Source of the DNA: Gammaproteobacteria bacterium
Lineage (GTDB): Bacteria; Pseudomonadota; Gammaproteobacteria; Xanthomonadales; SZUA-36
Length of the DNA: 62,282 nt
Reading direction: 5' to 3'
Assembly (NCBI GenBank): GCA_021772935.1
Contig: JAJFLA010000002.1
Span: forward strand, 1-62,282
This document shows positions 41,191 through 59,532 of this stretch, piece after piece. Position 1 is the first letter of the stretch. Each line of letters starts with the position of its first letter. The position numbers and the translations under genes were made by a program. The notes under the pieces were generated by a model. It was not told the DNA's origin. It made no database searches and saw nothing but the letters and a program-made list of their open reading frames with translations.

Positions 41191-41262
41191 GGGGTCAGAT
41201 TCAAATGCATCACGCATCAGTTATTTAATCAAACAACTTCATGTGCATTTGAGTCTGACCCC
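41191..41262. repeat. REP-like palindromic repeat overlapping a gene end
   Basis: Full copy with ends GGGGTCAGATTCAAATGC (41191-41208) and GCATTTGAGTCTGACCCC (41245-41262). The stop codon (41229-41231) and last ten residues (GSDSNAHEVV) of the giant fusion protein lie inside it, so the repeat supplies that protein's C-terminus. Confidence 0.85.
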
Positions 41263-44200
41263 GGTGTGGAGTCTGATGCCGATTTGGTTTGGTCTGTTGT
41301 AGTTGTTTCGTCCAATTCGATGCTCAGTACCTGACGCGAGCCGACAAAGACTTCTCCGGTTTGCCCATGTATGGATACCACATCACCTGCATGCACTGTA
41401 TGCCCAGGTTTACCGTTGGCCTTGGTGAAGATGGCCTTATCCGCGCTAACCCTGAGTTCAGGTACACCCAGCACGGCACTGTAGGGTTTATCTTCAATGC
41501 CATGTATGCAGACTGCGGCGTGTGAAGTTGAACCACCCCTGGACGCGAGTAAGCCGTCAACCTTCAGGATTAAGGGTATTTCATCAGGGGTCGGGTTTTC
41601 CAGCAGCAGCAATACGCCATCCGCTTCACCGGCTTTGCCGTCTAAAATTTCGGTCAGACGTTTGACATCTTTCAGGTTAAAAGCGACCAGGCCGCGAAAC
41701 GCGCCACCACTAATGCCAATACCTTGTCCTGACGGTAGACCCGGATCTTTAAAAGTGCGTGGATTGGCATACAAATCCATCTGTGCGCTGCGTGCCTGCA
41801 AGACACTTAATACACCACGGTCTACGGTGAATTCAATTTCTGCATCTGAGCCCAGGAAGCGTCTCAGTCGGGCGCTGACGTGATTGAGTTTGCGTTCCAG
41901 CATGGGTGCCAAACTATGCAAACGTTGTACCGGCTCGAAGGATTTGGCTGCAGTCGTACCGCCGACCAGGTCATCACCGCAGGCACTGAACTTTACATCA
42001 CCGGTAAATTCCCGGAAGCCTGTGGCTTGCATACGAGTATTGGGAATGACGCCAGTGAGTGAAATGCTCGTCTCATCAATGCCAACCTGTAGTTTTTGTC
42101 GGTTGGTACGGTTTCCGGAAGCCATCTGCTGCACGGTTACCGCCGTGTTCCATCCCTGGCTTAAATGTTTGATTTCTCGATATTGGCGGGCGCGATCACT
42201 ATCCCAGGATGCATGTACTGCCGCTATAGCGGTTTGCAACTGGAGTTCGGCGTCGTTCAGGATCAACTTGAGTTGATCTGCGTAACCTGCCTCTCGAATC
42301 GCCTCTTTTGAGGCTTCAACTACTTCGCGCATGGCTGCGCCAGGAAGGTCGGTTTTAAGTGAGACGCCCAGACGTCGCTTGATGTTTTCAATCAGATCAA
42401 GTGCCTCAAGATCGAGATTCCAGACAGCTGATGCATAGGAGACCAGAAAGCGCCGGTAAGCGTCCCATGCATACCACTCGTCATCGCGTGCCAGGGCTTC
42501 GGCGATAGTCTCGGTCATGCCGACAAACACCATTGTTGTCAACATACCTGGCATTGAGAAAACCGAGCCACCACGTACGGCGAGTAGTAAGGGTGCTTCA
42601 GGGTCACCGAGCCGTGCCGGCGAGCCCTCCTTACAGGCAATGTCTTTTTCCATCAAGCGCACGTGTTTCAACACTTCACGTTCAAAACGTTGTTGTTCTT
42701 TGTTGTGCAACTCCAGACGGGGCAAGACCGTTGGTATAATGAAACCATCGCGGGTGGGAATCCCAAGATAAGCGATGTAAATCAGCCCGCTACCCTTGCC
42801 ACCATAGCGTGCCTGTAGACTGGCGGCCTGTCTGTTCTCGACACGATAATTAATATCTTTGCGGTGCGACAGGTGAACGAAATCCCAGGGGTCTTCACCC
42901 GCACCGCCAAGCGTCGTTTGTTCTATCACACGACCACTTTCAGAGAGGAAACCACGTGCCAGGTCCGAAAAATGTACGAGGCTGTTCAGGTCATGCATGG
43001 TTCTCTGGAAGTTAGCCAGCACCGCACGCATTTCGTTAGGTCCATAACCCAGGTGTTCCGCCATCACCTCGTAAGCGTTGCTGACACGATGCACAAGACG
43101 ATGGTAGTTGCGCTGTATTTGTTCCAGCACATCGAGTAATTCAGAGGGTCTGCGCGCTGCGTTCACGAGCATCGCGGACAGATCCCAAAGTTCACGTGAA
43201 AACAGGCCATCCCGATCAAGGTTGCCAGCGCACAGGTGTACGATATTTAAACACTCTTCCAGTACCAGACCATGCTCCTGGTAATCAGAGGCGACGTGCC
43301 TCAGGGCAAAAAACCCCAACTCTTCCAAAATACAATCGAGTTGGTGTAACAGGTAGCGTTGAGTTGAGAATATGCCGTTCCCTGCGAGGGTTGTAAGCTC
43401 GCGCCGGAGACTGCAGCTACGTTCAAAAGCACCAAACTGTTCTTTACCTTGATAAAGCTCGAGTAACTCATCCAGTGCGGAAAACAACGGCACCTGATGA
43501 TCACGACGAATACATGTGCAAAATTCAGTCACCGCTTTACGTATTTCAGCTTCAACTTTTCTAGCAGGATAGTCGGCGTTGCCTGGCAGGTTTTTCTGTA
43601 AAGTTTCCAGGCTGGTCTTAAACGCCTCGCTTGCTTCTACGCTCCAGCTACCGTCTCGCAATTTACTGGCCAGACTGCGCAGACGGTGTTGATATACCCA
43701 CGGGTTGCTCGCCTGGATACCTTTAATCACCAATGATTCGAGCTCTTCTTCCAGGCTATTGCCTGATTCACAAGCCACCAGTTCGTTCTTATAAGTGTCA
43801 CGCCACTCGCTGAGTCGTCTTGCAATTTGTGAGCTACCCAGGAGTTGTTCAAGATTGGAAACAATACGTTTTACAAGGTCAGAAATCTCTGTGTTTGAGC
43901 GCGCAGCCTCATCAGTGGGTCCTGGTATCTCGCGGTCCGGGTCTGGGAAATCCGCTGTGCCTGTGTCTAACCACTGCTGATATGCTCGTGCCAGCTTGAG
44001 TGTGTGTTTACCCATCGCATGGTGTGTGCTTCTGCGGATCTCGTTGGTAATTGTGCTGCCGCGGACAAACACCTCGGCAAGGTCGATGGTGTCCTGCCAG
44101 ACCTCGTCGATCAGCTTTGGTTGTGATACCAGACCCGAGATGCTGCGTACGAGAATACTTGTTGGCAAACGCAAGCGCTCGGCGAAGGGGCCGTTCATGA

Positions 44201-47200
44201 ACTCGGCTAGTTCGAGTCGCACACGGGTAATTTCTGGTTTCAGATTCTTGGCGCCGGGCATTCCCCGATATGAGCTACTGCAAAGACGCGCAACCAGGAA
44301 GCGCAACAGGTACACAGCCTCATGGCGGCTACCACAGCTATTCAGACGTCTGAGCAGTCGGGCCAGATCACGTAGTCTTGCAACCTGGATGGTAGGCATA
44401 TCGTCGATGTGCAGATGATAAATCTCACGCTCAAGGTCGATAACATCACCCTGAAGTCCTGCCAGGTCGGTGATCAGGGCATCGGTAACAAGTGTGCCGT
44501 GAGGTAATTGCAATTGCCTCACGAGCTGTTCTGAATCTTTTTGCAGGGCGTAAATTGACAAGTTGCCATGTGCGTCGTATGGCACGATCAGGGTGTCTTT
44601 TGCTTTGAAGATACGATGGTTGGCAATTTCGAACATCCTGTAACGGTGTCCCAGAAACGTCATCGTTTCCAGGTAACAACGAAGCGTGATTTTGCTATTG
44701 TTGCCCTCGCCGTCATTGTTGGTGTCGCGCAGATAGGCATCGACCAGCGTGCGATTCAGCTTGGTTATATGCGCCTGTTCCTGAGCGCTAAAAGACATGT
44801 CTTCATCGACAACTGCAACCGCGCTGGGGATAAAAGGTGCTGTTACTGTGGTCTGTTCATCAACCGGGTGATAAATTCCCGTTACTTTGCGTAAGGCGTC
44901 ATAAAGTGGCAATCCCTGGGACTCAAGTTTGGTGTTCACCTCCCGCAGGGCAGTCAAGTAGTCATCAAAGAGACTGCCTTGAATGGCGATACCATGTTTG
45001 CCGGCGAGACGCTCAATGATGACGAGCATTTCCTCTCGCAGAAACTCGTATAGTTCTTGTCCACGCACATGCGCGATACCGCGTGCGAGTGCAAGTGAAG
45101 TTGATAAAATTGCATTCATGCCAAGATTTTGCTTACGCTGCATAACCTGAATTTCAGTCTGCTGGCTTGCGTCGTCAGTGAGCTTTCCACGACGTCTGGC
45201 GGTGGAGAGTTCCAGTTTTAGCAAGGCGCGGTCAATATCAAACAAACTCCAGTTTGCAATGTTTTCCTCTTCAAATAGTGGTGCGGCAAATTCATGTACG
45301 TGATCGACTGCATTCAAGCAACCCTTGCCTTCGTAGCGTTGGCTGCGCTTAAACAGCGCCAACAGGGCTTTGTCCTGGGTCGACTCGATTTGAGTACGAC
45401 TAACTTTGGCACCAAATGCAAAAACACCAGGCTCAATTTCCTTGACCAGTTGCGCGTGCCGTTCGACTGCTTCCACATATTCAGCACGTTCGAATACACT
45501 ATCAACCAGGTGTACGGCCTCACCGGTTCCGGACGAAGTTCCAAGGGGTGTTGCACCATGAAATGATAAACGTACGCGGCTTTCAGGGTTACCGCCCGGC
45601 AAGGCCAGGCGGACGTCAACACCCACCGTGGGAATACCAGCGTTGGTGGGTTCTTCGCGCGCCCGAAGACGTTCAACGATAGCAAATTCCGGTCTTTCGG
45701 GCTCTCTTACATCGGCCTCCAGTACCCGTTCCATCTGTGTTGTGACGGCCTGGTACTTGACCAGTCGCTCGGTATTCGCACCGCCACCGGCTTTGAGCCC
45801 CAGTGCATTGGTTGCCAGCGCAATGTGTGCCTCCATATCGTCGTTTGGGCTCTTGGAGCGGTGCGAAACGATCAGGTTCAAGTCCTTACCGAGGGTTACA
45901 AGTACGGCCAGCAAAGTCTCGTATAGCGAACCAATTTGATTGGCTTTTACCAACACGGAATTTATTAACTTTTTCTCTGTGGCCATTTCGATGGTGCGGT
46001 CATTGGTGGTCACCAGGTCGTCACCGATCACCAGTACACGATCTCCCAATTTATCGAGCAGCTTGTGCCAGCCCTCAAGATCGTCTTCGGAGAAGCCGTC
46101 TTCAATAGAAAGGATTGGAATATTGAGGTCAACAATCGCAGTCTCATAAATCGCCAGTACTGCGTCACGGTCCATCACTTTCTTCGCGTGATCGCGCCAG
46201 AAAAGATACATGCCAACGCTGTCAGGCATGTCAAATTCTTTGCGGTAAGCAATTTCCAGTTCGGATAGCGCAGGGTCGAGTGCTATGGCGACATCCACAC
46301 CGGGGCGATAACCGCACTCCTTTATCGTCTGCTTCATCATGACCCACAGACGTAGTTCGGGTAGTTCGTATTCTCCACGGTCAACATAAGGTGCCAGTCC
46401 ACCCTCAAGGCCGATGCCCATAACACGACAGCCTTCAGCTTTCTCAAGGATCTCTTTCAGACGATTTTGCAGACGCACGGTCATTTCCTGTGCTTCCTGC
46501 GAATCTACAGCACCCAGGATCAGGAACATGGCTTCCTGCATGCTGATATTGGATTCTGGGTATTCCTTTTCTGTATGTCGTCCACCCATTCCACAGTTAC
46601 GGAATTGCCAGGGTGCTCTGATGATACCAATGTGCGGGTGGCTGGCTATCTGCATGCTGCGTTCGACAATACGGCACTTGGCTGCTGCTGCCATACCGGC
46701 CCAACTCTCGCTGTCCGGCAGCGCTGCGGCAGCTTCATTGGCACGTTTTTCGCGGTTGCGGAATTCACGATACTTGCCTGGGTCGGCCAACAGGAAATCG
46801 AGACCGGTGACCATACCCAGGCCAAGCAGCACTCGTCCAAGGTTAAGTACAAAAGTCACGTCCTGTAAAAGCCCGATAGCCAACAGGATCAAACCGACCG
46901 GCAGTGCCAACCGGGCGACCTTGAGGCTAGCGCGCGGACCGGCTGCCGCAACTGCCAGATTGTAGGGCGCATCAGGGTAATAATTGAGCCCTTCGCGCTT
47001 GATCCCGGTCGCGTGTCCGTAAGGTGTGCGTATAAACAGGTGAAGCAGATAAGGCAAGCGTGCTGCAAAAGAGCCAACAAGCCGGGCTTCAATGGAATCC
47101 TGGATCGAATCGCTGAGTGCGCGTAGACGCGCTGCCTCCAGAAAGTGGCCCATTTCGTGAAATGCAATGGCACAGTGGAAGACGGTATAGGTGAAAATTG

Positions 47201-47522
47201 CCGAGATGATGGTCTCGGGGCTCATGAAAATAAAGCGCAGCACCGCTTCCCTTGTCGCTGCTTCGTCGGGGATTGCCAATACCGAGGAAATAAATGCCAC
47301 ATGAAAGGAAACGAGGATGTGGTTGGCAATTACCCACCCCTCTTGTAAATAGGACTTTTCTTTAACTATATCCATACACGCAGGACTGATAGGAGCACCA
47401 GCGGAAGATTTTTTTGCTTGCCTGACCAGTGATACGGCGGATTTCATGGCGCCCGTGCTCTTCAGTTGGGCGAAACTATATCCGTGGGGTCTAAACCCAA
47501 CAATGATCTGGGTCAACTGCAA
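41229..47522 (-). CDS. M50-like protease / permuted enolase / PPDK-like fusion protein
   Basis: 2097 aa. Residues 60-250: membrane domain with about four helices, HEMGH (122-126), AAAGPRASL (192-200) and LDF (241-243), the pattern of M50 site-2-type metalloproteases. Residues 298-602: enolase barrel with H316, E330, E373, D416, E474, D501, K526, H554-R555-S556 and K577 matching the active site. Residues 615-830: the enolase N-terminal domain (PTVGVDV 631-637, GTSSGTGEAV 661-670, LGMNAILSTSLALARG 800-815) placed after the barrel, a circular permutation. Residues ~830-1560: helical, unassigned. Residues 1570-1915: PPDK ATP-grasp (GGKGSGL 1574-1580, VRGGSVFSMPGM 1649-1660). Residues 1925-2065: phosphohistidine domain (GGSTSHAA, H2001). 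The PEP/pyruvate barrel is missing. The start is TTG at 47522 or ATG at 47447. Possible roles: PEP-linked phosphorelay or regulated proteolysis; none is proven. Confidence 0.85.
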   Translation of the reverse strand: MQLTQIIVGFRPHGYSFAQLKSTGAMKSAVSLVRQAKKSSAGAPISPACMDIVKEKSYLQEGWVIANHILVSFHVAFISSVLAIPDEAATREAVLRFIFMSPETIISAIFTYTVFHCAIAFHEMGHFLEAARLRALSDSIQDSIEARLVGSFAARLPYLLHLFIRTPYGHATGIKREGLNYYPDAPYNLAVAAAGPRASLKVARLALPVGLILLAIGLLQDVTFVLNLGRVLLGLGMVTGLDFLLADPGKYREFRNREKRANEAAAALPDSESWAGMAAAAKCRIVERSMQIASHPHIGIIRAPWQFRNCGMGGRHTEKEYPESNISMQEAMFLILGAVDSQEAQEMTVRLQNRLKEILEKAEGCRVMGIGLEGGLAPYVDRGEYELPELRLWVMMKQTIKECGYRPGVDVAIALDPALSELEIAYRKEFDMPDSVGMYLFWRDHAKKVMDRDAVLAIYETAIVDLNIPILSIEDGFSEDDLEGWHKLLDKLGDRVLVIGDDLVTTNDRTIEMATEKKLINSVLVKANQIGSLYETLLAVLVTLGKDLNLIVSHRSKSPNDDMEAHIALATNALGLKAGGGANTERLVKYQAVTTQMERVLEADVREPERPEFAIVERLRAREEPTNAGIPTVGVDVRLALPGGNPESRVRLSFHGATPLGTSSGTGEAVHLVDSVFERAEYVEAVERHAQLVKEIEPGVFAFGAKVSRTQIESTQDKALLALFKRSQRYEGKGCLNAVDHVHEFAAPLFEEENIANWSLFDIDRALLKLELSTARRRGKLTDDASQQTEIQVMQRKQNLGMNAILSTSLALARGIAHVRGQELYEFLREEMLVIIERLAGKHGIAIQGSLFDDYLTALREVNTKLESQGLPLYDALRKVTGIYHPVDEQTTVTAPFIPSAVAVVDEDMSFSAQEQAHITKLNRTLVDAYLRDTNNDGEGNNSKITLRCYLETMTFLGHRYRMFEIANHRIFKAKDTLIVPYDAHGNLSIYALQKDSEQLVRQLQLPHGTLVTDALITDLAGLQGDVIDLEREIYHLHIDDMPTIQVARLRDLARLLRRLNSCGSRHEAVYLLRFLVARLCSSSYRGMPGAKNLKPEITRVRLELAEFMNGPFAERLRLPTSILVRSISGLVSQPKLIDEVWQDTIDLAEVFVRGSTITNEIRRSTHHAMGKHTLKLARAYQQWLDTGTADFPDPDREIPGPTDEAARSNTEISDLVKRIVSNLEQLLGSSQIARRLSEWRDTYKNELVACESGNSLEEELESLVIKGIQASNPWVYQHRLRSLASKLRDGSWSVEASEAFKTSLETLQKNLPGNADYPARKVEAEIRKAVTEFCTCIRRDHQVPLFSALDELLELYQGKEQFGAFERSCSLRRELTTLAGNGIFSTQRYLLHQLDCILEELGFFALRHVASDYQEHGLVLEECLNIVHLCAGNLDRDGLFSRELWDLSAMLVNAARRPSELLDVLEQIQRNYHRLVHRVSNAYEVMAEHLGYGPNEMRAVLANFQRTMHDLNSLVHFSDLARGFLSESGRVIEQTTLGGAGEDPWDFVHLSHRKDINYRVENRQAASLQARYGGKGSGLIYIAYLGIPTRDGFIIPTVLPRLELHNKEQQRFEREVLKHVRLMEKDIACKEGSPARLGDPEAPLLLAVRGGSVFSMPGMLTTMVFVGMTETIAEALARDDEWYAWDAYRRFLVSYASAVWNLDLEALDLIENIKRRLGVSLKTDLPGAAMREVVEASKEAIREAGYADQLKLILNDAELQLQTAIAAVHASWDSDRARQYREIKHLSQGWNTAVTVQQMASGNRTNRQKLQVGIDETSISLTGVIPNTRMQATGFREFTGDVKFSACGDDLVGGTTAAKSFEPVQRLHSLAPMLERKLNHVSARLRRFLGSDAEIEFTVDRGVLSVLQARSAQMDLYANPRTFKDPGLPSGQGIGISGGAFRGLVAFNLKDVKRLTEILDGKAGEADGVLLLLENPTPDEIPLILKVDGLLASRGGSTSHAAVCIHGIEDKPYSAVLGVPELRVSADKAIFTKANGKPGHTVHAGDVVSIHGQTGEVFVGSRQVLSIELDETTTTDQTKSASDSTPGSDSNAHEVV

Positions 47523-53100: not shown

Positions 53101-53149
53101 ATAAAAATTAATTAGCATTAATATGTATCGTAACGTCGGAGTAGGCGAA

Positions 53150-55000
53150 ATGAGTGAAGTTATCGAGCCGCGAGTTTCTTCAAATGCGCCTGAAAGTCTG
53201 AACATCATTACCCAGACCGGGCAGGGTGCCCGACCGATGACGGGTAATGAAGCCATTGCCCGCGGTGTGTGGGAAGCTGGTTGTCGTGTTGCTGCGGCTT
53301 ATCCCGGTACACCCAGTACCGAGATACTGGAAAACCTGGCAAAGTACCCGAGCCAAGACCTGCATGCACAGTGGTCGACGAATGAAAAGATCGCGCTGGA
53401 TGTCGCCTATGGTGCATCTTATGGTGGTGTGCGGGCTTTCTGTGCGATGAAGCATGTTGGTCTGAATGTTGCAGCAGATGCTTTGCTTACCCAAGCCTAT
53501 ATCGGCGTCAATGGCGGCATGGTGCTGGCTGTGTGTGACGATCCGGGGATTCACAGTTCGCAAAACGAACAGGATACACGTTTGTTTGGCAAACTCGCCA
53601 ACGTGCCAGTGCTGGAACCTTCAGATGCGCAGGAGGCACTTGATTATACCCGTTGGGCTTATGAGCTCAGCGAGCAGTTTGATACACCCATTATTGTTCG
53701 CAGCACGACCCGGATTGCCCACACCCGTAGCCCTGTAGTTGTCGGCGAGCGCCAGGAATTTGAAAGCCAGGGATTTGTTGAACGACCAGAAAATATCGCA
53801 CTACCTACAACGGCACGTCGTCGTCATCCAGTGGTGATCGAACGTGAATCCCTGATGGAAACATACTTCAGTGAGTCGGCAAAGACTCAATGGATAAAGG
53901 GTGATACCAGTGTCGGTATCATTACTGCGGGCATGTCGTACAGTTATGTCAGAGAGGTATTGCAAGGATTCAGCATATTGAAATTACCGGCGTCTTTTCC
54001 GCTGGCCCGTGACAGCGTTCGTGAGTTCTGCGACTCGGTGGAGCGTGTCATTGTGGTTGAGGAACTGGAGCCATTCCTCGAAACAGAAATTGCCGCAATG
54101 GGCTACAAGGTGGAAGGCAAGGTGTTTTTCCCAAGGGCGGGTGAACTTTCACCCGAGCTGGTCCATGAAGGTTTTGCAAAAGCCGGTTTGCTTGAATCAC
54201 GCAAGATAAAGAGCATGCTCAATTTTGATGAACTGGTGCGCCCACCCGTGCTGTGCTCAGGTTGTCCTCATACCGGTGGTTATATGGCATTGCGTGCACT
54301 CGATGCCCGTGTTGCTGGTGATATTGGCTGCTATACACTTGCCGCAATGCAACCCTTACAAGCCATGGACACCTGCGTGTCGATGGGTTCCAGTATTGGT
54401 ACGGCTGTCGGTCTTGCCAAAGCAGGCAATGAAACCAGACCCATTGTGGCCACCATTGGTGATTCCACCTTTCTGCATGGTGGCATTCCTGGTTTGATCG
54501 ATGCCGTTTATAACCAGGCTAATATCACCGTGTTATTGCTCAACAACAGTACTACCGCAATGACGGGTGGTCAGGACCATCCCGGTACCGGCAGAACCTT
54601 ACGTGGCGATGAAACTCACCAGGTGAATTATGCAGAAGTCTGCAGGGCGGTGGGTGTGAAGTCGCTGAAGGAAGTTGATTCATATGACCTTGGTGTACTC
54701 TACCAGGCCATTCGCGAAGCAACCGAGTATAAGGGTGTTTCAGTGGTCATCGCTAACCGGCCGTGTGTGCTGGACCCGGTCAAGATCAAAGGACCCGCAT
54801 TCCAGATTCGCGCTGAAGGGTGCACAGCCTGTCAATCCTGTATGAACCTCGGTTGTCCGGCTCTGTCCTGGAGTGACGAAATGCTGGATGGCCATCACAA
54901 GATTAAAATTGATGAAACATCGTGCATCGGTTGCACCTTGTGTGTACAGATATGCCCCAGTGATTGTATCCGCCCGGCGCTGGAGTTAAACCCGTCATGA
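53150..55000 (+). CDS. iorA: Indolepyruvate oxidoreductase alpha subunit
   Basis: About 616 aa from the ATG at 53150 (MSEVIEPRVS), preceded by GGAG; an ATG at 53123 is also in frame. Domains: pyrimidine-binding N-terminus (GNEAIARG, YPGTPSTEI), LCSGCPHTGGY, TPP motif IGDSTFLHGG with NNSTTAMTGGQDHPG, and two 4Fe-4S clusters at the end (CTACQSCMNLGCP, CIGCTLCVQICP). It oxidatively decarboxylates aryl-pyruvates with CoA. It is of ordinary length, without the GltD insertion of the first iorA. First gene of a five-gene coupled operon; its TGA overlaps the iorB start. Confidence 0.92.
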   Translation: MSEVIEPRVSSNAPESLNIITQTGQGARPMTGNEAIARGVWEAGCRVAAAYPGTPSTEILENLAKYPSQDLHAQWSTNEKIALDVAYGASYGGVRAFCAMKHVGLNVAADALLTQAYIGVNGGMVLAVCDDPGIHSSQNEQDTRLFGKLANVPVLEPSDAQEALDYTRWAYELSEQFDTPIIVRSTTRIAHTRSPVVVGERQEFESQGFVERPENIALPTTARRRHPVVIERESLMETYFSESAKTQWIKGDTSVGIITAGMSYSYVREVLQGFSILKLPASFPLARDSVREFCDSVERVIVVEELEPFLETEIAAMGYKVEGKVFFPRAGELSPELVHEGFAKAGLLESRKIKSMLNFDELVRPPVLCSGCPHTGGYMALRALDARVAGDIGCYTLAAMQPLQAMDTCVSMGSSIGTAVGLAKAGNETRPIVATIGDSTFLHGGIPGLIDAVYNQANITVLLLNNSTTAMTGGQDHPGTGRTLRGDETHQVNYAEVCRAVGVKSLKEVDSYDLGVLYQAIREATEYKGVSVVIANRPCVLDPVKIKGPAFQIRAEGCTACQSCMNLGCPALSWSDEMLDGHHKIKIDETSCIGCTLCVQICPSDCIRPALELNPS

Positions 55001-55911
55001 ACGCCACGGTAACCGGACCTACAAACGTTCTGATCGTCGGTGTCGGTGGCCAGGGCGTCATCATGGTGTCGAAAATACTCGCAAGATTGAGCCAGCAACA
55101 GGGTTTGCAGGTCAAGCAAAGTGAAGTACATGGTATGGCCAAACGTGGCGGTTCCGTGTTTAGCCATATTCGTTTTGGTGAAGAGGTGTGGTCACCGACC
55201 ATACCCATGGGCGAGGCCGATGTTGTGCTGGGGCTTGAGTGGGCCGAAGGTCTGCGTTGGCTACGCTATCTGAAACCGGATAGTGGCACGTTTATCTCGG
55301 ATACCAAGAGAATAGTTCCACCATTTTCTTGCCGTGACAGACAGCACGATGCCAAACATGGTTATGCACATCATACGGTTGCTGACATTGTCGCGCAGGT
55401 ACCCAATACCTTCGCACCGGATGCCACTGGAATGGCAATCGAACTGGGAAATGAGAGGGTTGCCAATACTATCCTGTTGGGTGTGCTTTCTACCGTCATG
55501 GATTTCCCGGTAAAAGACTGGTTAAAAGTGTTACCTGAATTTGTGCCTGCAAAGACACTGGAGACCAATCTCAAGGCTTTCAAAGCGGGTCGTGCCTGGA
55601 CGAAAAAACCACATGAGCCCGATTTGCGTCAGACAACGGTACAAGCACAGGCTGGCCCGTTGATGCGTCGTCAGGTCAGTCTGGAAATCACTGAGGAATG
55701 GTGTAAAAGTTGTGATATTTGCGTGAAGATGTGTCCAGAGCGTTGCCTTGCGCTGGATCAACGTCAGATCGTCAAGCTGGTCAAACCGCAAGCCTGTACC
55801 GGTTGCCGGGTTTGTGAGTGGTTATGCCCGGATTTTGCCATTGCGGTTCATGTCGAGGCGGTGCCTGCAGAAAACATTTCAGTTGTAACAGCCACAGAGG
55901 TAAGAGTCTGA
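54997..55911 (+). CDS. iorB: Indolepyruvate oxidoreductase beta subunit fused to a 2x[4Fe-4S] ferredoxin
   Basis: About 304 aa from the ATG at 54997, which overlaps the iorA stop (ATGA). Residues 1-190 are IorB (VGVGGQGVIM, EVHGMAKRGGSVFSHIRFG). Residues ~225-290 form a bacterial ferredoxin with CKSCDICVKMCP and CTGCRVCEWLCP, like the delta subunit of 2-oxoglutarate ferredoxin oxidoreductase (KorD). KorA, KorB and KorC follow but no separate korD, so the ferredoxin tail may serve the Kor complex as well as Ior, or bridge them (inference). Confidence 0.9.
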   Translation: MNATVTGPTNVLIVGVGGQGVIMVSKILARLSQQQGLQVKQSEVHGMAKRGGSVFSHIRFGEEVWSPTIPMGEADVVLGLEWAEGLRWLRYLKPDSGTFISDTKRIVPPFSCRDRQHDAKHGYAHHTVADIVAQVPNTFAPDATGMAIELGNERVANTILLGVLSTVMDFPVKDWLKVLPEFVPAKTLETNLKAFKAGRAWTKKPHEPDLRQTTVQAQAGPLMRRQVSLEITEEWCKSCDICVKMCPERCLALDQRQIVKLVKPQACTGCRVCEWLCPDFAIAVHVEAVPAENISVVTATEVRV

Positions 55912-57056
55912 TGTCAGAAATACCACAACGACAGAGTCTGCAGGGCAACCAGGCTTGCGCGCTCGGTGCAATTGCCGCTGGTTGTCGTTTGTTTGCCGGT
56001 TACCCCATTACACCGTCATCCGAGATTGCCGAACGCATGTCAAAAGAGTTGCCAGCGGTCGATGGTGTGTTTATTCAGATGGAAGATGAAATCGCCTCAA
56101 TGGCGGCTTGCCTGGGCGGCTCGATGGGTGGGGTTAAATCCATGACTGCAACATCCGGGCCCGGCTTTTCGCTCAAACAGGAAAATATCGGTTACGGAAT
56201 TCAGGCCGAAGTGCCGTGTGTCGTGATCAACGTGATGCGTGGTGGGCCGAGTACCGGTATGCCGACCCGTCCAGCGCAGGGTGATGTCATGCAGGCTCGT
56301 TGGGGAACTCACGGTGATCATCCGATAATTGTATTGACACCAGCGTCGGTTCAGGAGATATATCAGCAAACCATCCAGGCTTTCAATTTTTCCGAGACCT
56401 ACCGGATACCCGTGGTGGTGTTGTATGACGAAGCCATCGGGCACCTTATTGATACGGTGGATCTCCCGCATGCGAAAGATATAGAAACTACAGAAAGGAA
56501 ATGGGCAAGCGGCCCTGCCAGTGATTACCTGCCTTACCAGGCGGACGAAGATGGTATCCCGCCGATGCCGTTACCTGGTGATGGCTATCGTACGCATACA
56601 ACAGGTCTGACGCATTTGGAAAACGGCTTCCCGACCCAGGTTCCAGCCGATGTGACCCGTGTTACCAGCCGTTTATTGGATAAGATTGAGAATCACCGGG
56701 ATGCAATAGAGCAATATGAACTGATAAGTTGCGAAGACGCAGAAATCCTGCTGGTAGCATTTGGCATCACTGCCCGCTCCAGTGAACGCGCAATCAATAT
56801 TGCGAGAGAGAAAGGTATCAAGGTGGGCCTGCTACGACCGGTCACCCTGTGGCCGTTTCCTGAGAAGGTTTTTAAGCAACTTGCCGAGCGAGCAAAACAC
56901 GTACTTGTTGCCGAAATGAATGCCGGTCAGCTGATACTGGAAATAGAACGTCTGTGCCCGAGTGGCACAATGGTGAGCGGTATCAACAAATTTGATGGCG
57001 AGTCCATTCAACCGGATGAAATCCTGTCCAGGATCGAGGAGTGCGGTCATGAGTGA
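55911..57056 (+). CDS. korA: 2-oxoacid:ferredoxin oxidoreductase alpha subunit (KorA-like)
   Basis: 381 aa from the ATG at 55911, which shares a base with the preceding stop (TGATG). GNQACALGAIAAGCRLFAGYPITPSSEIAE, MEDEIASMAACLGGSMGGVKSMTATSGPG and MRGGPSTGMPTRPAQGD are KorA/PorA domain I motifs, here broken by ordinary residues; the C-terminal half has the domain II strand-loop LLRPVTLWPFP. It binds CoA and 2-oxoacid with KorB. 2-Oxoglutarate is the most likely substrate from family similarity, but branched or aryl 2-oxoacids are possible. Confidence 0.9.
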   Translation: MSEIPQRQSLQGNQACALGAIAAGCRLFAGYPITPSSEIAERMSKELPAVDGVFIQMEDEIASMAACLGGSMGGVKSMTATSGPGFSLKQENIGYGIQAEVPCVVINVMRGGPSTGMPTRPAQGDVMQARWGTHGDHPIIVLTPASVQEIYQQTIQAFNFSETYRIPVVVLYDEAIGHLIDTVDLPHAKDIETTERKWASGPASDYLPYQADEDGIPPMPLPGDGYRTHTTGLTHLENGFPTQVPADVTRVTSRLLDKIENHRDAIEQYELISCEDAEILLVAFGITARSSERAINIAREKGIKVGLLRPVTLWPFPEKVFKQLAERAKHVLVAEMNAGQLILEIERLCPSGTMVSGINKFDGESIQPDEILSRIEECGHE

Positions 57057-57921
57057 TGCAGTAATGCCTTTAAAGCTCACGGAAAAACCTGCGCACAAGA
57101 CAACGGGGCAATTTGAGATACGGGATTATCTTCGATTGGACTTGTTTCCACATTTCCTTTGCCCGGGTTGTGGTCATGGTATCGCTTTGCGCGCTTTGCT
57201 CTGGGCCATTCATGATCTGGATATTGAAAAAGACCAGTTGGCGGTTGTCAGTGGCATTGGTTGTTCAGGACGGTTGAGTGCTTATATTGATGCCAATACG
57301 TTTCACACCACTCACGGGCGTCCAATTGCGTTTGCCACTGGTCTGAAGCTGGCGCGTCCTGATCTGCATGTCATTGTTATCACCGGTGATGGTGATTGTC
57401 TGGCCATTGGTGGTAACCACCTTATCCACGCTGCGCGTCGTAACCTGGATATCACCTGTATCATGTTAAATAATGAAGTCTACGGTATGACCGGCGGCCA
57501 GGTTTCTCCCACCACCAGTCTCGACAGGTTTACAACAACAACACCAATGGGCAATCAGGAGCCGGGATTTGATGCCTGTGCGCTCGCCAAGGGTGCCGGA
57601 GCGACGTTTGTTGGGCGAGAAGTCACCCTGCAAACTACCGCCCTGAAAAACCTGATGCAGGAAGGGATTGCTCATCAGGGTTTCTCGTTTGTTGAAGTTA
57701 TTTCCGATTGCACAGAAGTTTATGGTCGAAAGAATGATCTTGGCTCTTCTCCGGAAATGGTGTTGAGTCAGAAGCGTAGTATTCTGCCCAAGTTTGATGG
57801 CACGGCGGTTGATAAGCCTTTCCGTGCTGGTGATTGGGAAACCGGGGTTTTGTCACGTGAAGACAGGCCTGAGTATTATGCCGCCTATCGGGCGCACTGC
57901 CATCGGGTGCTTGGAAAATGA
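57049..57921 (+). CDS. korB: 2-oxoacid:ferredoxin oxidoreductase beta subunit (KorB-like)
   Basis: 290 aa from the ATG at 57049, overlapping korA by 8 bp (ATGAGTGA). FLCPGCGHGIALRAL (cluster Cys), SGIGCSGR, HTTHGRPIAFATGLKLARP, and the TPP motif GDGDCLAIGGNH with NNEVYGMTGGQVSPTT are diagnostic. It carries TPP and a 4Fe-4S cluster. The stop overlaps the next start (ATGA). Fully consistent with a functional partner of the alpha subunit. Confidence 0.92.
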   Translation: MSDAVMPLKLTEKPAHKTTGQFEIRDYLRLDLFPHFLCPGCGHGIALRALLWAIHDLDIEKDQLAVVSGIGCSGRLSAYIDANTFHTTHGRPIAFATGLKLARPDLHVIVITGDGDCLAIGGNHLIHAARRNLDITCIMLNNEVYGMTGGQVSPTTSLDRFTTTTPMGNQEPGFDACALAKGAGATFVGREVTLQTTALKNLMQEGIAHQGFSFVEVISDCTEVYGRKNDLGSSPEMVLSQKRSILPKFDGTAVDKPFRAGDWETGVLSREDRPEYYAAYRAHCHRVLGK

Positions 57922-58457
57922 GTGCGGGCAACGGATATGAGATTCGACTGAGTGGCACAGGTGGTCAGGGTCTGGGTCTCAGTGGCAAAATGCTGGCGGC
58001 AGCCCTGAGCTCTGAAGGCATGCATGTTGCGCAGTCACAAAGTTATGAGCCCACTTCGCGGGGAGGAATGAGTCGTTCTGACCTGGTGGTTAGCAGGGAA
58101 ACGGCTGACTACCCGTTGGCGACGGGTCTGGATTATCTGCTAATCCTGGACAAACGGGCAATGTCCATTTCCGAAGGCATGATTAACAAGGATGCCCTGG
58201 TGCTGGTAGATGAAGAACTGGTCCCTGAACCACCCAGTGGTGAATTTAGAGTCCATTCGTTACCACTAAGCAAAACTGCGATATCACTGGGCAACCTGCG
58301 TGTTACTAATGTTGTCAGCCTGGGCGCGCTCATTGCACTGGGAGATATCTGCGACCTGCAAACAATGGAAGCAGCGATCAGGCGCAACACACCAGCGAAG
58401 TACGCACAAATGAATCTGGATGCAGTTCGTGCCGGGTTTGAATTAGTCAATAACTAG
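57918..58457 (+). CDS. korC: 2-oxoacid:ferredoxin oxidoreductase gamma subunit (KorC-like)
   Basis: 179 aa. RLSGTGGQGLGLSGKMLA glycine loop, QSYEPTSRGGMSRSDLVVS and NVVSLGALIAL fit the gamma subunit. Its ATG overlaps the korB stop by four bases. It completes the alpha-beta-gamma set; the missing delta is probably the ferredoxin tail on IorB. The stop codon lies in an 11-bp tandem repeat. No clear terminator follows in the next 250 bp. Confidence 0.9.
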   Translation: MSAGNGYEIRLSGTGGQGLGLSGKMLAAALSSEGMHVAQSQSYEPTSRGGMSRSDLVVSRETADYPLATGLDYLLILDKRAMSISEGMINKDALVLVDEELVPEPPSGEFRVHSLPLSKTAISLGNLRVTNVVSLGALIALGDICDLQTMEAAIRRNTPAKYAQMNLDAVRAGFELVNN

Positions 58458-58710: not shown

Positions 58711-59532
58711 ATGGGGAAGCAAGAAAAACCTGATGATATCTATACCAGAAAAGGTACTATCAAAAAAAAGGTCTATGAAAAGGAACTCGCCCGCTTACAG
58801 GTTGAACTGGTCAAGTTGCAGGCATGGATTAAACATAAGCAACTGAAAATAGTTGTTATATTTGAAGGCCGTGATGCTGCTGGAAAAGGTGGCACGATCA
58901 AGAGAATTACAGAACCTTTGAACCCGAGAACCTGTAGGGTTGTGGCACTACCAGCACCAACCGACCGGGAAAAAACCCAATGGTATTTCCAGCGTTATGC
59001 CAACCACCTTCCCGCTGCTGGTGAAATGGTGATTATGGATCGTAGTTGGTATAACCGCGCTGGTGTAGAAAAGGTGATGGGGTTTTGTACGGCGCAAGAG
59101 CATGAAGAATTTATGCGTTCCTGCCCAGAATTTGAACGTATGCTGAAACGAAGTGGTATTTTATTGATCAAATACTGGTTTTCAGTCAGTGACAAGGAAC
59201 AGGAAAAACGCTTTCAGGGTCGCCTGCTTGATCCAACAAAAAGGTGGAAGCTAAGCCCGATGGATCTGGAATCAAGAAAAAAATGGCTCGAATATTCAAA
59301 AGCTAAAGATTTCATGTTTGCGCATACTGATATCAAGCAAGCGCCTTGGTATGTGGTTAATTCCGACGTTAAAAAGCATGCCCGGCTGAACTGTATTTCG
59401 CATTTGTTGAGCCTGGTCGATTATCAGGATCTGACTCCCAAAAAAATTGATTTATCGGAACGACCCACAACAGGAGTTGGTTATATCCGTCCGCCGCTGG
59501 AAGACCAGGGCTTTGTACCGGAAGTTTTCTAA
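58711..59532 (+). CDS. ppk2: Polyphosphate kinase 2
   Basis: 273 aa, single-domain PPK2. Walker A in FEGRDAAGKGGTIKRI, Walker B and lid in VIMDRSWYNRAGVE, plus KYWFSVSDKEQEKRFQGR and the aromatic-rich C-terminus. It transfers phosphate between polyphosphate and nucleoside mono- or diphosphates; the class (ADP- or AMP-directed) is not decided here. Ribosome site AGGAG just upstream. The 253-bp gap before it holds no gene. Confidence 0.93.
   Translation: MGKQEKPDDIYTRKGTIKKKVYEKELARLQVELVKLQAWIKHKQLKIVVIFEGRDAAGKGGTIKRITEPLNPRTCRVVALPAPTDREKTQWYFQRYANHLPAAGEMVIMDRSWYNRAGVEKVMGFCTAQEHEEFMRSCPEFERMLKRSGILLIKYWFSVSDKEQEKRFQGRLLDPTKRWKLSPMDLESRKKWLEYSKAKDFMFAHTDIKQAPWYVVNSDVKKHARLNCISHLLSLVDYQDLTPKKIDLSERPTTGVGYIRPPLEDQGFVPEVF

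Follow-up and report, generated by a model that had tools for sequence, protein, structure and literature searches.

What could a single bacterial protein do that carries a membrane protease-like core, an enolase and half of a pyruvate phosphate dikinase (PPDK)? The question is raised by a gene on contig JAJFLA010000002.1 of a gammaproteobacterial genome (assembly GCA_021772935.1), of which a stretch of 62,282 nucleotides (nt), called the window here, was analyzed. Positions 41229-47522 of the minus strand form a single intact open frame of 2097 codons, counted from TTG. A preliminary description of the window had proposed an M50-like protease, an enolase, a long helical part and the ATP-grasp and phosphohistidine domains of PPDK, all in one unbroken frame. 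The modules are supported by profiles, motifs and invariant residues, and the unbroken frame is borne out in the window and by ten further full-length frames. That description missed the circular permutation of the enolase, the absence of PPDK's pyruvate/phosphoenolpyruvate (PEP) barrel, the autonomous C-terminal half and the probable FNR-type control of the gene.

A Pfam scan of the fused protein gave four domains, each above its Pfam cut-off: Enolase_C at residues 312-594 (7.7e-48), Enolase_N at 719-828 (1.8e-11), PPDK_N at 1611-1825 (3.6e-12) and the PEP-utilizers/His mobile domain at 1968-2056 (1.9e-6). The match of the window protein to the M50 profile is weak. Relatives were collected with a pattern scan of genome contigs, which reaches close relatives only. 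It returned 19 loci, all titled as gammaproteobacterial metagenome-assembled genomes. The preliminary description had made its claim depend on the same order of modules existing in another genome, and ten loci hold it in full-length frames of 2,037-2,201 amino acids (aa), stop to stop (L029, L033, L034, L036, L037, L039, L040, L041, L044 and L047). In five more (L030, L031, L032, L045 and L046) a contig end or a frame break interrupts the fused order. Because ten further intact frames with identical domain order exist in separate records, a chance frame or an assembly artefact was excluded; nothing was found in favor of this explanation, and we give it practically no weight. The gene is under purifying selection, with dN/dS values of 0.02-0.17 in five pairs, wherever dS was computable; the values are rough because dS was often >1.5. 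In the counts of invariant residues that follow, only alignment rows with letters at the position concerned were used.

The start codon is likely the ATG at 47447. This ATG column is present in nine of ten aligned upstream regions, although out of frame in one of the nine (L034), and it lies 27 nt from the -10 hexamer of the conserved promoter. At the other end, a dispersed inverted-repeat element at 41191-41262 of the window (GGGGTCAGACTCAAATGCA ... TGCATTTGAATCTGACCCC) contains the stop codon of the frame and the ~11 codons before it. Short stretches similar to this element are listed at nine other places in the genome.

Table 1. Positions of the fused gene, its promoter and its modules in the window
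Feature	Position	Strand	Remarks
FNR-type box TTGACCCAGATCAT	47503..47516	(-)	Centred on -41.5 when the -10 hexamer is placed at -12 to -7; kept in 12/13 loci
-10 hexamer TATAGT of the FNR-type promoter	47475..47480	(-)	Conserved promoter motif
Whole open frame	41229..47522	(-)	Likely coding sequence 41229-47447 from ATG (2072 aa)
Membrane M50/S2P-like core (residues 60-275)	46698..47345	(-)	Motifs, M50 profile, hydropathy
Enolase C-terminal (barrel) domain, first in order (residues 300-600)	45723..46625	(-)	Profile, alignment; catalytic residues kept
Enolase N-terminal domain, second in order (residues 612-840)	45003..45689	(-)	Profile match 719-828; 612-718 by motif reading only
Mostly helical domain (residues 900-1540)	42903..44825	(-)	VWQDTIDL and NEIRRSTHH invariant; family and fold searches gave nothing convincing
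PPDK-type ATP-grasp domain (residues 1560-1915)	41778..42845	(-)	K1576, R1650, E1897, Q1909, R1911
Swivelling phosphohistidine domain (residues 1916-2062)	41337..41777	(-)	His2001 in GGSTSHAAV; no PEP/pyruvate barrel after it

The enolase module is circularly permuted, with the barrel before the N-domain. The order of its two Pfam matches, C-terminal domain ahead of N-terminal domain, is the reverse of that in ordinary enolase. An ordinary enolase is also encoded in the source genome, and residues 304-603 of the fused protein align with its residues 143-410 at 31% identity, with the N-domain match coming afterwards. When residues 608-845 were aligned with residues 1-138 of canonical enolase, the score was 66, compared with 12.9 +/- 5.8 (maximum 31) for 300 shuffles; pairwise alignment does not place 612-718, the first part of the N-domain. 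Eleven positions (H316, E330, E373, D416, E474, D501, K526, H554, R555, S556 and K577) are invariant in all 15/15 or 16/16 rows. We take these to be the catalytic and Mg sites, binding 2-phosphoglycerate (2-PG) and PEP, as in yeast and E. coli enolase. The score with TIGR01060, 205.3 of 300 bits, is below the curated equivalog cut-off for enolase. Between the window's genome and seven relatives, identity is 87-94% in the fused barrel against 75-92% in the housekeeping barrel, and the barrel is the best-conserved part of the fused protein in each of the seven comparisons. A housekeeping role of the fused protein was rejected, since the genome has the ordinary enolase and two PEP-barrel proteins. 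No earlier report of a circularly permuted enolase was found in a literature search by title and start of abstract, with subscription journals mostly outside it. The frame at L081:1421-4186 joins a nicotinate phosphoribosyltransferase-like (NAPRT) part to a second, divergent enolase whose domains stand in the usual order. This frame is unrelated to the fused protein and holds runs of X between its parts, so the join may be an assembly gap.

The C-terminal half contains a part of PPDK. Its grasp and swivel domains score 240.4 bits with the PPDK model TIGR01828 (cut-off 843.45) versus 22.9 with PEP synthase, and PPDKs are its best solved relatives. K1576, R1650, E1897, Q1909, R1911, T1999 and H2001 are invariant in 18/18 rows. 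The Pfam scan gave no match to the PEP/pyruvate barrel (PF02896) within the fused protein, and the two PF02896 proteins of the genome sit on other contigs. Because this barrel is missing, the exchange of phosphate with PEP that had been suggested for the protein is not supported. ATP is the likely phosphate donor to the dikinase half.

In front of the grasp lies the helical domain of ~640 aa, in which ten counted positions of VWQD and NEIRRSTHH are invariant in 19/19 rows. Its sole family match is a short MbeD_MobD stretch in 7 of 12 members (best 1.4e-4), with the window protein below the cut-off. Among solved sequences only Leiomodin-2 was matched (E 0.009), and in a fold search no match other than PPDK, for the grasp, had an E below 0.24. 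With Foldseek, the N-terminal half of the protein led to enolase, the grasp to PPDK and the helical domain to nothing convincing. Since dikinases are known in which the PEP barrel is swapped for another acceptor domain, as described in excerpts on rifampin phosphotransferase (PMC4844700) and HpeHI (PMC12167813), the helical domain may by analogy be a candidate acceptor site.

The membrane core carries HEMGH at 122-126, AAGP at 193-196 and D242. Hydropathy gave hydrophobic stretches at 63-87, 93-122 and 197-249, which would make about four membrane segments. M50/S2P proteases are marked by an HExxH motif and a distal Asp that lie within membrane segments or close to them, and the core has both: H122, E123 and H126 are invariant in 12/12 rows and D242 in 15/15. 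All ten aligned members match Peptidase_M50 at E <= 10 (best 8.4e-5). The enolase and dikinase modules would lie on the cytosolic side of the membrane. A tie between central-metabolite enzymes and a membrane protease-like core, as first proposed, is supported.

The DNA ahead of the fused gene holds a promoter motif: TGAY-N4-RTCA, followed after exactly 22 nt by TANNGT, occurs in 11 of 12 loci. L045, checked afterwards, also carries it, which brings the total to 12 of 13 fused loci. Nine other spacings gave 0 matches, shuffled regions gave 1/24,000, and the window together with 11 loci, both strands included, holds 12 matches in 518,670 nt. A box centre at -41.5 is the class II FNR position in the excerpt of PMC7349173, and the fused gene has its box there, in a genome that encodes an Fnr. 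The single PF00325 protein found there is Fnr (230.6 bits, cut-off 228); its gene adjoins hemN, and it carries CxxCxxxxxC, ETISR and a further Cys aligned to one in solved FNR. These Cys residues are presumably the cluster ligands. FNR-type control of the fused gene is a prediction well supported at the sequence level, and Fnr would bind at this promoter.

The pattern TTGAY-N4-RTCA-N23-TANNNT has 13 matches in the source genome versus 1 for a reversed control. One match is the fused gene itself and two are identical copies on one contig. Ten downstream open reading frames (ORFs) were scanned, leaving out L115 (the copy of L114) and L121. Those above a curated cut-off are hemN, a 'nitrous oxide-stimulated promoter family' protein, a doubled-CXXCH protein, a PorC/KorC-type subunit and a succinate dehydrogenase/fumarate reductase flavoprotein. 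The best model for the last, whose frame is cut by the locus end, is fumarate reductase, just below that model's cut-off. Four others stay below the cut-offs: an OsmC-like protein, a CoxB/NosZ-like protein and, in frames truncated where the locus ends, a NarK-family transporter and a 2-oxoacid oxidoreductase alpha subunit. One ORF had no match. In L033, a remnant second copy of the promoter/start region of the fused gene (L033:293-500, two blocks, 89% identical) sits about 7 kb upstream of the intact gene.

The two halves of the protein differ in distribution. Four of the scan loci (L035, L042, L043 and L038, the last with a frame break) have the C-terminal half only, and a fifth such gene is L083 in genome G012. 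The helical and PPDK half is an autonomous module. It is present in 19 of 61 relatives' genomes. Within the order it occurs in 19 of 299 genomes, which all belong to a single family (19/39 of that family), and in samples of the class (369 genomes) and the phylum (398) it occurs in the source genome only. Fifteen of the 39 genomes of the family have the M50 part, each of them together with the C-module, and a protease and enolase half by itself was not found among these 39. The M50 part was not found in G012, G030, G033 and G036 (G033 is 82% and G036 76% complete), and the class sample gave one weak partial match, in G048 (E 2.7e-5, 56 positions). In the tree, two sets of C-only genes fall inside fused clades: L042 and L043 with L036 (96/92), and L035 in a 10-row clade (85/93, not starred). 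The G012 gene is at the midpoint root on a long branch. Because L036 (fused) and L043 (C-only) have three neighbors in common, the N-terminal half was lost or gained in place. No plasmid record covered 80% of the fused protein, and 19 pattern matches in viral contigs included no relatives.

No constant operon partner was found: the neighbors change, and the most widespread neighbor cluster is present in 4 of 21 loci, many of which have short flanks. In four of the 21 loci (L034, L029, L047 and L082) a large oxidoreductase gene, molybdopterin-type by reading of its sequence, lies divergently upstream of the fused gene. In L039 a scanned gene for a tandem-domain PPK2 (L039:6881-8428) follows the fused gene on the same strand by 33 nt, and L040 has its homologue on the same strand 88 nt behind. 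The tandem type of PPK2 can recycle AMP. A PPK2 gene in this place would fit a release of AMP, in these two loci only. The window has a single-domain PPK2 at 58711-59532. It also holds two consecutive sets of 2-oxoacid:ferredoxin oxidoreductase-like genes at 53123-58457, the first gene identified by a scan and the others by reading. A role in anti-phage defence was rejected, with no PADLOC match.

As a tentative answer to the opening question, no more than possible, we favor a low-oxygen-induced membrane protein in which an enolase and a dikinase on the cytosolic side would work at the PEP node, or report on it, and would gate an S2P-like protease. Computation shows the anatomy, the invariant residues, the purifying selection, the conserved promoter motif and the autonomy of the C-terminal half, whereas the enzyme activities, ATP as donor, the acceptor, Fnr binding, the topology and the gating are inferred from them. 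All three centres are taken as working because their main residues are kept. Fnr would switch the gene on at low oxygen, and the permuted enolase would interconvert 2-PG and PEP. ATP would charge His2001 with release of AMP, and the swivel domain would carry the phosphate over to the helical domain and the acceptor that it holds. Occupancy or turnover of the cytosolic centres would then gate the M50 core in its cleavage of a membrane substrate, like the proposal for the CBS domain of SpoIVFB. In vitro that domain binds ATP, and a role in reporting energy status has been proposed for it (excerpt of PMC6242693). A metabolite- and ATP-gated protease is favored because an M50 core with a cytosolic nucleotide-binding part is the geometry of S2P group 3. 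A sharper version is rather doubtful: here an intramembrane protease would use a built-in glycolytic enzyme and a phosphohistidine relay for sensing, 2-PG/PEP flux and ATP would directly set its cleavage of a membrane substrate once oxygen is gone, and the enolase would work in permuted form.

Several observations count against a gated protease. The window protein reaches only E 0.82 and 9.4 of the 27.2 bits required with Peptidase_M50, below the Pfam gathering cut-off; the protease has no known substrate, and a gating interface was not seen. The two structure models are weak (mean pLDDT 53.6 and 61.0), too weak to settle interfaces. The C-terminal half occurs alone in five loci and therefore does not need the protease; the M50 part was not found in the genomes of L035 and L038, where an empty result is uninformative. 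The same excerpt reports that the SpoIVFB CBS domain is not strictly needed in vivo (PMC6242693). Some active-site positions are also less fixed: S2000 is Ala in 1 of 18 rows, and the enolase loop serine lies in an ambiguous alignment, with S664 replaced by Ala in 5/15 rows and T666 by Ser in 2/15. As for control, the fused locus L082 has no promoter at its start and only a relaxed match 568 nt upstream, no FNR box was found in up to 600 nt upstream of the five C-only genes, and PF00325, the only Crp-type helix-turn-helix model searched, is one of several.

The protein could instead be a purely metabolic enzyme of the PEP node that channels carbon at the membrane during anoxia, with the M50 core as an anchor or for self-processing. 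Enolase (2-PG to PEP) and PPDK (PEP, pyruvate and ATP) are consecutive and have PEP in common, and fusions often link consecutive steps. The FNR-type motif groups the gene with fumarate-reductase-type and 2-oxoacid oxidoreductase genes, and conservation of the fused barrel is similar to that of the housekeeping barrel. Against this account, the protein has no PEP/pyruvate barrel, the genome already encodes an enolase of the ordinary kind as well as two PF02896 proteins, and a mere anchor would not need an invariant HExxH and D242. We regard this account as rather unlikely by itself, and the gated protease is only narrowly ahead of it.

The gated protease is also ahead of a new small-molecule chemistry, in which the dikinase phosphorylates a hydroxy acid or another small molecule and the enolase-type domain carries out an elimination, in an anaerobic catabolic or cofactor pathway. 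Exchanged acceptor domains of the rifampin phosphotransferase and HpeHI kind (excerpts of PMC4844700 and PMC12167813), a helical domain without a convincing match and the gene directly behind the fused gene in L039 and L040 (a tandem PPK2 in L039) would suit such a pathway. Eleven kept 2-PG/PEP and Mg positions of a true enolase and the absence of constant pathway neighbors make it unlikely. A structural protein, whose cytosolic enzymes serve without catalysis as scaffold or moonlighting domains, is very improbable: enolase is known to moonlight, but here the main catalytic residues are invariant and no part is better conserved than the barrel in seven comparisons.

If the gated protease is correct, a central glycolytic enzyme is physically linked to membrane signalling within an anaerobic regulon, and one of life's most conserved enzymes has a natural circular permutation. 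The protein adds a dikinase half with a previously unrecognised putative acceptor domain. Its pieces are separable for expression and assay, so metabolite sensing becomes testable.

The modules are of known kinds, but to our knowledge no such whole protein has been described, and none was found in the literature search, which covered titles and the starts of abstracts and few subscription journals. The fused protein has both domains of enolase (TIGR01060/PF00113+PF03952), its eleven 2-PG/PEP and Mg positions and a barrel 31% identical to the genome's own; it differs in having the barrel before the N-domain, a membrane fusion, insertions and a sub-cut-off family score. It shares with PPDK (TIGR01828) the ATP-grasp, the swivel His domain and the conserved K, R, E, Q, R and His, whereas the C-terminal PF02896 barrel is absent and a 640-aa helical domain stands in front. 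Rifampin phosphotransferase and HpeHI/CreHI/PpsAB likewise have a grasp, a swivel His and another acceptor domain in place of the PEP barrel, a role that the helical domain, for which the searches gave no convincing family or fold, may have here. Unlike in those small-molecule dikinases, the grasp is PPDK-type; kinases of phenolic substrates are reported to be nearer PEP synthase (excerpt of PMC12167813). The putative promoter site resembles class II FNR/ANR promoters in its box centred at -41.5 and in the genome's own Fnr beside hemN, but its right half-site is RTCAT in most loci, not ATCAA. The comparison with SpoIVFB (S2P group 3) involves a weak sequence match and a predicted protease activity. 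In both proteins an M50-type core is followed by a cytosolic nucleotide-binding module, with an enolase and a dikinase here in the place of the CBS domain.

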